Position numbers and translations under genes: made by a program | Assembly: GCF_000013185.1 (NCBI RefSeq) | Contig: NC_007984.1 | Coordinates: 582,136 to 619,692 of the forward strand | Length of the DNA: 37,557 nucleotides | Direction: 5' to 3' | Source of the DNA: Baumannia cicadellinicola str. Hc (Homalodisca coagulata) | GTDB lineage: Bacteria > Pseudomonadota > Gammaproteobacteria > Enterobacterales > Enterobacteriaceae | Notes under the pieces: model-generated | Told to the model about the DNA's origin: nothing | What the model saw: the letters and a program-made list of their open reading frames with translations, nothing else | Databases searched by the model: none | Part shown: positions 26,968-28,931 of the stretch, piece by piece | Position numbering within the stretch: position 1 is the stretch's first letter | Layout of the letters: each line of letters opens with the position of its first letter

Positions 26968-28251
26968 TTAGACAAGGTAGTCTAACAATTCTACTTCCCG
27001 TTTACATAAACGATACCATTGAACAATAGGTATTTTTACTAATAATCGAATACTACCATCTTGTTCACTCCACTCTTGTTCTATAGCCTGTAACTGATAA
27101 AAAAGGCTACGTAAGCGGCTAGCTTGAGGTGGTAAACGTAAATTATAGCGGATTATTTTATGTTTTCGTATTAAAAGCTCACTTAGTGCTTGCATTAGTA
27201 ATGTAATACCATCAGCATTTTGCGCTGATAGCCAAACACGTACTGGTTCATTATCAGTATTACGATCAATACGTGGTATGAAATTATCAAGTTGGTCTAT
27301 TTTATTCATTACTAGTAAGGTAGAGATATGATTAGCATTAATTTCTACTAATACTTTTTTAACTGCATCTATTTTGATATTAATGCACTGATCGGTAGCA
27401 TCTACAATATGTAGTAGTAATTTTGCCTGCTGTGTTTCCTGTAATGTTGACTTAAATGATGCGACAAGATGATGAGGTAGATGTTGGATAAAACCTACAG
27501 TATCGGCGAGTACTATATTACCAATAGTAGGGATATTCAGGCGTTTTAGTGTTGGATCGAGGGTTGTAAATAATTTATCAGCAACATCTACACTAGCTTC
27601 AGTGATACTATTGAATAATGTTGATTTTCCAGCATTTGTATAACCTACCAGTAAAATAGTAGGAATAGAAGCACGTGCATACCGTCCTTGCTCACGTCTT
27701 CTCTCTACTTTTGCTAAACGTAATTTAATTGTATTCATTCTATTACGCAATAATCTACGATCAGTTTCTAGCTGAGTTTCACCAGGTCCACGTAATAGGC
27801 TAATACCACCTTTTTGTCTTTCAAGATGCGTCCAGCCGCGTACTAATCTAGTAGCAATATATCGTAATTGTGCTAATTCAACTTGTAGTTTTCCCTCGTG
27901 AGTACGTGCGCGCTGCGAGAAAATACTAAGTATTAATCCCGTCCGATCAATGACACGACACTGACATAAACACTCTAGATTACGTTCTTGAGCAGGAGAT
28001 AAAGCATGATCAAAAATAACTACTGATGCACTACTGATCTTAACTTTTTCTGCAATTTCTTCTGCTTTACCTTCACCAACGAAATATTTAGAATTTGGCT
28101 CCTTACGGCTACAGGTTACTATATCTAATACCGATAAACCTGCAGATAAAACTAAAGTTTCAAACTCTTTTATATCTGCTTTATTATGATCTTTTGTAAA
28201 AAAGATATGAACTAGTATTGCTTGAGTACCAAACTTAGAACAATTAAACAA
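26968..28251 (-). CDS. hflX: GTPase HflX (ribosome-splitting factor)
   Basis: Binds the 50S subunit and splits stalled ribosomes in a GTP-dependent way. The N-terminal HflX domain (about 1-190) has YFVGEGKAEEI and the conserved RGPGETQLETDRRLLRNR. The GTPase domain has G1 GYTNAGKS, G3 DTVGFI and G4 NKID. It has 427 residues against 426 in E. coli. It sits between hfq and hflK as in the E. coli miaA-hfq-hflX-hflKC operon, with a 107-bp gap after hfq. Confidence 0.97.
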   Translation of the reverse strand: MFNCSKFGTQAILVHIFFTKDHNKADIKEFETLVLSAGLSVLDIVTCSRKEPNSKYFVGEGKAEEIAEKVKISSASVVIFDHALSPAQERNLECLCQCRVIDRTGLILSIFSQRARTHEGKLQVELAQLRYIATRLVRGWTHLERQKGGISLLRGPGETQLETDRRLLRNRMNTIKLRLAKVERRREQGRYARASIPTILLVGYTNAGKSTLFNSITEASVDVADKLFTTLDPTLKRLNIPTIGNIVLADTVGFIQHLPHHLVASFKSTLQETQQAKLLLHIVDATDQCINIKIDAVKKVLVEINANHISTLLVMNKIDQLDNFIPRIDRNTDNEPVRVWLSAQNADGITLLMQALSELLIRKHKIIRYNLRLPPQASRLRSLFYQLQAIEQEWSEQDGSIRLLVKIPIVQWYRLCKREVELLDYLV

Positions 28252-28358: not shown

Positions 28359-28859
28359 CTAATTACGATCACCACTATGATTGCTATAGTTACTACTATT
28401 ATTAGCATAGTGTGATACAAATTTTGATGGTACAATAGTGGATACAGCGTGTTTATAAACCATTTGGCTAATAGTATTTTTAAGTACAATCACAAACTGA
28501 TCGAAAGACTCAATATGGCCTTGTAATTTAATGCCATTAAACAAATAAATAGAAACCTGAATACGTTCTCGACGTAATACATTTAAGAATATATCTTGCA
28601 AAGATTGCCCCTGAGCCATTCTATCTTTTCTATCGTGAGCTATTCTATCTTTTCTATCGTGAGCTATTCTATCTTTTCTATCGTGAGCTATTCTATCTTT
28701 TCTATCGTGAGCTATTCTATCTTTTCTATCGTGAGCTATTCTATCTTTTCTATCGTGAGCTATTCTATCTTTTCTATCGTGAGCTATTCTATCTTTTCTA
28801 TCGTGAGCTATTCTATCTTTTCTATCGTGAGCTATTCTATCTTTTCTATCGTGAGCCAT
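28359..28859 (-). CDS. hfq: RNA chaperone Hfq with an N-terminal (AHDRKDRI)n repeat extension
   Basis: Hexameric Sm-like protein that pairs small RNAs with mRNAs. The last 86 codons are a normal Hfq: [43 protein letters not shown] (Sm1, in parts) and the Sm2 signature [11 protein letters not shown]. The C-terminal tail is short ([12 protein letters not shown]), against 102 residues in E. coli. The frame stays open upstream through 80 extra residues, ten copies of AHDRKDRI, to ATG 28857-28859. That ATG has the good Shine-Dalgarno (AAGGA, nine bases upstream). The ancestral ATG at 28617-28619 has only GAAAAGATAGA before it. The extended start is therefore the better one, though initiation at both sites is possible. 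Operon miaA-hfq-hflX. Confidence 0.9.
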
Positions 28860-28870
28860 TCTATCTTTTC
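28615..28870 (-). repeat. 24-bp in-frame tandem repeat spanning the hfq start
   Basis: Ten complete 24-bp units (28615-28854) plus 16 bp of an eleventh; the units look identical except at one base. The unit begins on the minus strand with AAAAGATAGAATAGCTCACG. The first and last copies, in transcription order, have ATG where the nine internal copies have ATA. The unit resembles the ribosome-binding/start region itself (AAAAGATAGAATGGCTCA), so it probably arose by duplication of the hfq start. Being 24 bp, any copy-number change keeps the frame. It has no spacers, so it is a minisatellite, not a CRISPR array. Confidence 0.97.
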
Positions 28871-28931
28871 CTTGCTTAGTTTACTTATAATATACATGTA
28901 GCTGGCAATAATATAAAAAATATTCCAGTAT

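Follow-up and report, generated by a model that had tools for sequence, protein, structure and literature searches.

A 24-bp minisatellite at the hfq start codon of a Baumannia strain, predicted to add 80 residues to Hfq

Introduction

How much can be added to the amino terminus of Hfq, and where could such an addition come from? A short, variable N-terminal extension, usually of four residues, is described as typical for the protein (PMC6561178), and many insect endosymbionts are reported to have lost Hfq (PMC4972996). The hfq locus of Baumannia cicadellinicola str. Hc, a species whose current genus name is Palibaumannia, raises the question in a particular form, as a tandem array occupies the translation start of the gene. 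A genome size of about 686 kb is given for the Baumannia of the glassy-winged sharpshooter, Homalodisca vitripennis (PMC8496328), and public reads and MAGs from two single insects exist (PMC9302190). The genome analyzed here is a single contig of 686,194 bp; "the window" denotes the stretch of 37,557 nucleotides that contains hfq, and unlabeled coordinates refer to it. Here, we ask what the array is, how it arose, whether it is translated and what it would do to Hfq.

Results

An in-frame minisatellite at the hfq start

Minisatellites are arrays of highly similar units, some 10-60 bp long and arranged head to tail. The hfq array belongs to this class: Tandem Repeats Finder locates it at 28612-28870 (259 bp) with a period of 24, 10.8 copies, 99% matches, 0% indels and a score of 504. 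Read from 5' to 3' on the minus strand, the order is AAGGA, nine nucleotides, an outer ATG at 28859, the array units and the ancestral hfq ATG at 28619 (Table 1). The nearest in-frame stop 5' of the outer ATG is a TAA at 28883, and the unit is free of stops in only one forward frame out of three, that of hfq. With a length of 24 bp, divisible by three, and no stop in this frame, every further copy lengthens the protein by eight residues and leaves the gene unbroken.

Table 1. Features of the hfq start region and coding sequence in the window
Feature	Position	Strand	Basis
Shine-Dalgarno sequence AAGGA of hfq, just outside the array	28869..28873	-	duplex energy with 16S tail; leader shared with L038, L039 and L040
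Repeat unit 1, AAAGATAGAATGGCTCACGATAGA, with the outer ATG at 28859	28845..28868	-	unit parse
Repeat units 2-10, nine identical 24-bp copies, ATA replacing ATG	28629..28844	-	unit parse, Tandem Repeats Finder
Partial 17-bp copy with the ancestral hfq ATG (28619-28617)	28612..28628	-	unit parse, comparison of relatives
80-residue N-terminal extension, M-(AHDRKDRI)9-AHDRKDR	28620..28859	-	translation, charge, AlphaFold2
Ancestral 86-aa Hfq, Sm core intact, short C-terminal tail without acidic tip	28359..28619	-	NCBIfam NF001602
Full 166-aa frame, extension plus Hfq	28359..28859	-	ORF, translation, NCBIfam

A preliminary description of this DNA had proposed an in-frame, stop-free 24-bp array between a Shine-Dalgarno sequence with ATG and the ancestral hfq ATG, with ATG in the first and last copies and ATA in the nine inner ones, and Tandem Repeats Finder, the unit parse and the open reading frame confirm all of this. 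Two of its details need correction. The inserted peptide, given as (AHDRKDRI)10, does have 80 residues, but its exact form is the one in Table 1, followed by the ancestral methionine; and the statement that no internal starts remain holds for the nine inner copies, but not for the ancestral ATG, which is still present.

The next-best tandem repeat in the window and 11 further stretches of 20 kb (about 258 kb of the 686 kb) scores just 72, with 2 copies, which argues that the hfq array is not a product of chance; no second array of its kind was found in this part of the genome. A search of the whole genome for the unit, with at most 2 mismatches, returned 10 matches, all inside the hfq array. 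Promoter and terminator predictions placed no site inside it. On the plus strand, a 101-aa open frame (28596-28901) runs across the array antisense to hfq and is probably a by-product of the repeat.

Database representation and the possibility of an artefact

No array-bearing Hfq was found among the matches listed in searches of a protein database clustered at 90%, one of which covered sizes of 0.55-1.75 x 166 aa (best 120 of 1418 matches) and another of which scored 8000 candidates (best 120). According to a local control, the Hfq core preceded by 2-12 repeat units would outscore the other matches. P0122, the representative that matches the 86-aa core exactly, begins at the inner ATG; the array cannot be seen in it, and other cases of this kind could escape notice in the same way. 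Two sequences from 3 contigs make up the P0122 cluster, and the one other than the representative may be longer than 86 aa. As even the Hfq of this genome is represented as 86 aa, the missing array-bearing matches are no evidence against an array in other strains. The array is also unreported in those parts of the literature that the searches on Baumannia hfq and tandem repeats and on Hfq N-terminal extensions covered, a scope outside which the genome paper (Wu et al., 2006) falls.

An assembly or cloning artefact would fit the facts that the array is known from one genome and that no protein carrying it was among the matches listed, even though forms with 2 to 12 units would have ranked above them. 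However, a protein search is blind to the array even in this genome, for the reason just given. Moreover, the 259 bp fit within one Sanger read, and the Baumannia genome was reportedly finished from such reads. The defined pattern of ATG and ATA codons over the units is also not what misassembly usually produces. We therefore consider an artefact very improbable.

Origin of the array

The preliminary description had derived the array from the hfq start region itself, and comparison with relatives agrees. The sequence AAGGAAAAGATAGAATGGCT is intact at the outer copy and identical in the array-free loci of two same-genus genomes (L038, L039) and of a relative with a 5.1-Mb genome (L040). In G002, G003 and the 5.1-Mb relative G019, the leader reads AAGGAAAAGATAGAATGGCTAAGGGGCAATC and no array is present; in the window, hfq has kept AAGGAAAAGATAGAATGGCTCA at the outer edge of the array and GATAGAATGGCTCAGGGGCAATC at the inner edge. 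Three more relatives (L062, L063, L014) have a different leader, and the array is likewise absent. The array pattern occurs in one of four same-genus genomes. For the suggestion that related symbionts be searched for repeats before Hfq, the outcome within the genus is that the other three genomes lack the array.

The sequence of events can be read in part from the units themselves. An A-to-C change in codon 3 is found at both edges of the array and therefore predates it. The identity of units 2-10 and their perfect 24-bp register speak for recent expansion or homogenisation, and one G-to-A change in the copy that was amplified explains all nine ATA codons. While the loss of the internal ATGs could be taken as a hint of selection, the single change before amplification explains the pattern.

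How the first unit was formed can be read in two ways. Aligned with a straight 24-bp copy of the leader that includes the Shine-Dalgarno sequence, an inner unit agrees at 19 of 24 positions; its final 7 nt agree with AGATAGA at 6 of 7. Judging by these matches, a 17-bp copy with filler would be as likely a source of the unit as a straight 24-bp copy. MutS and RecA matches are found in all four same-genus genomes and MutL lies within the window, so that there is no obvious repair defect that would favor slippage; we assume ordinary slippage or unequal exchange as the mechanism.

Which start codon is used

The duplex energy with the 16S tail, for which a generic sequence was used that may differ from that of this genome, is -5.4 kcal/mol before 28859 versus -0.9 before 28619, and the outer ATG holds the only strong Shine-Dalgarno sequence among 11 sites. 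As there is no stop between 28859 and 28619, initiation at the outer ATG must read into Hfq. Because the outer copy has kept the ribosome-binding site, the 166-aa protein is likely to be the main product; that it is made at all seems to us quite probable.

The array could, alternatively, be a long leader only, with translation starting at the ancestral ATG 28619 and yielding an ordinary Hfq of 86 residues. This would agree with the database representative P0122, which is the 86-aa form, and with the similar predicted accessibility of the two start regions (0.64 and 0.61 unpaired). Weak Shine-Dalgarno energies are also common in the window. The comparison took in 24 genes, hfq among them, that encode at least 100 aa and have a reciprocal match in G002, each read from its first possible start; the anti-Shine-Dalgarno energy is -0.9 or weaker for 11 of them and -5.4 or stronger for 6, so that weak pairing at 28619 does not exclude initiation there. 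Against this, a Shine-Dalgarno sequence and an ATG at standard spacing persist at the outer copy, with no stop before 28619, and an array that served as a leader only would not need to be open or to have a period of three. We regard the leader-only explanation as unlikely, but some 86-aa Hfq may be made as well from the inner ATG. The computed masses of the two forms, about 9.8 and 19.8 kDa, are close to, if slightly above, the 9.5 and 19 kDa estimated earlier.

The Hfq core is intact

The 166-aa form is recognized by NF001602 (125.7 bits, cut-off 95), TIGR02383 (92.4, cut-off 61.7) and PF17209 (96, cut-off 27), and the 86-aa core (28359..28619) by NF001602 with 128.1 bits (cut-off 95). The residues R16, Y25 and K56, described as rim, distal and proximal residues of Hfq (PMC6348989), are kept at positions 96, 105 and 136 of the 166-aa form. 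Compared with G002, the core has a pN of 0.173 and a pS of 0.569; the corresponding values are 0.170/0.610 for mutL and 0.148/0.519 for miaA, and 0.103/0.631, 0.055/0.623 and 0.068/0.523 for the more constrained hflK, hflC and purA. The core is thus under purifying selection, like mutL and miaA and laxer than hflK, hflC and purA.

Unique Hfq changes number 15 in the window genome versus 2 in G002 (p = 0.0023). We nevertheless rejected accelerated evolution of Hfq in particular, as six neighbors are also faster in the window genome (pooled changes 193 to 87), and Hfq does not differ significantly from them (Fisher p = 0.107). The C-terminus (28359-28424) ends in NHSGDRN, without the acidic tip that is found in G002 and several enterobacterial Hfqs; G003 Hfq likewise has no such tip. 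In E. coli Hfq, the acidic C-terminal tip is reported to displace RNA from the rim (PMC5606850).

Properties of the tail

The tail contains 30 K/R, 20 D and 10 H. Its net charge is about +10, in line with the earlier claim that the repeat arms are net positive, and by inspection D and R recur at i,i+4 along the repeat. A charged single alpha-helix is a stable monomeric helix with i,i+4 salt bridges. In an AlphaFold2 monomer model (56-sequence alignment), residues 3-82 form one helix with a block pLDDT of 56-80 over the tail, followed by the Sm fold; overall, the 166-aa model has a pLDDT of 64.6 and a pTM of 0.31, a weak indication of a helical tail.

Two database matches of the repeats were set aside. 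The repeats match PF22178 (phage gp5-type trimeric beta-helix) in Pfam with 35.0 bits (cut-off 30.9). Nine of nine shuffled octads, each repeated ten times, match this family as well (11.9-29.4 bits, all below the cut-off), with the real repeat scoring highest. We read the match as mostly an effect of period 8 and do not take it as evidence for a gp5-type trimerisation module. A PDB match of the repeat to a Dot/Icm chain has E = 3 and is of low complexity.

Could the tail be functional? Positively charged helices, six per hexamer and all on its proximal side, might alter RNA capture, RNA release, solubility or partner binding, and would perhaps offset the shortened C-terminal tail without acidic tip. 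The net charge and the modeled single helix point in this direction, as does the contrast between NHSGDRN at the end of this Hfq and PENYDAE in G002. The N-terminus of E. coli Hfq is described as protruding from the proximal face, consistent with the placement of the N-termini in the preliminary description, and the acidic C-terminal tip as competing with RNA at the rim (PMC5606850). However, the confidence in the helix is low to moderate. AlphaFold2 also tends to render charged repeats as helices. G003 Hfq and Arsenophonus Hfq (P0013) do without the acidic tip and also without an array, no second lineage with such a tail was found, and G001, of the same genus, has no hfq. We think it unlikely that the tail is functional in this sense. 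As the N-terminus of Hfq is free, the tail is probably tolerated; tolerance rather than selection is the most likely state by the present comparisons, and any function is probably slight.

The array as RNA

It is also conceivable that the array acts as RNA, multiplying an Hfq-binding site of the hfq leader and thereby tightening or titrating autoregulation. Repression of the E. coli hfq mRNA by Hfq is reported to act through site B (-20 to +4), which contains an (ARN)3 tract (PMC6348989), and the unit copies part of the corresponding region. In support of an RNA role, (ARN)2 tracts are three times denser in the array than in other genes (7.39 per 100 nt, against 2.33 on average; none of 77 segments is as high). 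Yet there is no (ARN)3 in the array (28868-28612), while coding segments average 0.62 per 100 nt, and the sole (ARN)3 of leader and array together, at 28872-28864, is the original tract, which covers the Shine-Dalgarno sequence and reaches five bases into unit 1. There is thus little support for the array as a series of copied operator sites. The related idea of an Hfq-trap RNA is weakened by the same absence of (ARN)3, and we would give an RNA-level role hardly any probability.

hfq in the genus and the family

In G001, a profile search gave no Hfq match; miaA and hflX flank a gap of about 260 nt at the place of hfq (L107, G001:C1:554900-557000), in which no Hfq match better than chance was found. 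Gene loss thus differs within the genus, as G001 lacks hfq and has kept hflX, while the window keeps both. No hflX match was found in the stretches of G002 and G003 that were searched (L097, L100), which both bear hfq. The first possible start of the hflX frame in the window (26968-28251) is a TTG. In the family sample, 194 of 246 genomes have an Hfq match. Among the matches listed, which do not include the window's own row, the longest open Hfq frame is that of G079 (153 aa), and its extra length is non-repetitive; the 20 Hfq-less genomes listed are all at most 1.6 Mb in size (32 more genomes are Hfq-less). Hfq is thus dispensable in some such genomes, which favors tolerance of the tail over adaptation. 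L091:7428-7619 matches the Yersinia sRNA family Ysr276 in Rfam with 100.1 against a gathering score of 100.

Discussion

The conversion of a start codon region into an in-frame minisatellite is real, and is seen in one lineage. Our comparisons suggest the following course of events. The ancestors of this Baumannia strain would first have acquired a tandem duplication of a short sequence around the hfq start codon, and slippage or unequal recombination would then have expanded the duplicate to ten full units of 24 bp. A Shine-Dalgarno sequence with a working ATG would have been retained at the outer edge, where ribosomes would start and produce an Hfq of 166 residues. This protein would carry an alternately charged, possibly helical tail of 80 residues before an intact Sm core, a near-neutral addition that would be tolerated, not selected. 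Taken as a whole, this reading, with recent amplification, use of the outer start, a tolerated tail and possibly a minority product of 86 residues, appears probable to us. A bolder version, according to which the minisatellite has rebuilt Hfq into a hexamer with up to six long, charged helical arms, whose length would follow the copy number in steps of eight residues, with altered RNA handling, a gene that always stays in frame and a possible mixture of long and short subunits from the two start codons, seems to us unlikely.

The protein shares with the enterobacterial Hfq family (NF001602/TIGR02383, PF17209) the intact Sm core, the rim, distal and proximal residues, the leader and the neighborhood, with miaA upstream and hflX and hflK downstream. 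It differs in its repetitive N-terminal extension and in the short C-terminal tail. Near-double Hfq length is also found in P0002 (158 aa), which we considered as a repeat-bearing relative and rejected: it is a metagenomic Hfq composed of two Sm-like halves, of which the second has diverged more, and owes its length to this second domain rather than to short repeats.

Repeats in coding sequences of insect symbionts have precedents. In Sulcia of Draeculacephala minerva, in-frame coding repeats are reported to vary in number, with 8 or 9 copies of a 6-nt unit and 12 to 17 of a 9-nt unit (PMC2859065). As at hfq, these are multiple-of-three units in coding sequences of a sharpshooter symbiont; the symbiont, the host species, the genes and the unit lengths are different, and the account consulted states no start-codon origin for the repeats. 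By analogy with the variable copy numbers in Sulcia, a change of copy number at the hfq array is plausible. Tandem repeats in tolA of Blochmannia are likewise found in a gene of an insect symbiont, differ between species and are described as absent from an early-diverging one; in contrast to the hfq array, they have units of 80-100 bp and reside in a membrane protein, and the repeats of E. coli tolA are located elsewhere in the gene (PMC4389277). Hfq and coding repeats in symbionts are known; unusual is an in-frame array that was seeded at a start codon and would lengthen Hfq.

The case shows that a start codon region can seed an in-frame repeat that doubles a conserved protein. With hfq normal, doubled and absent, one genus offers three states of the gene and thereby a natural test of the freedom of the Hfq N-terminus. 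If the tail is made, this Baumannia strain would provide a ready-made experiment on how much can be added to Hfq on the proximal side.
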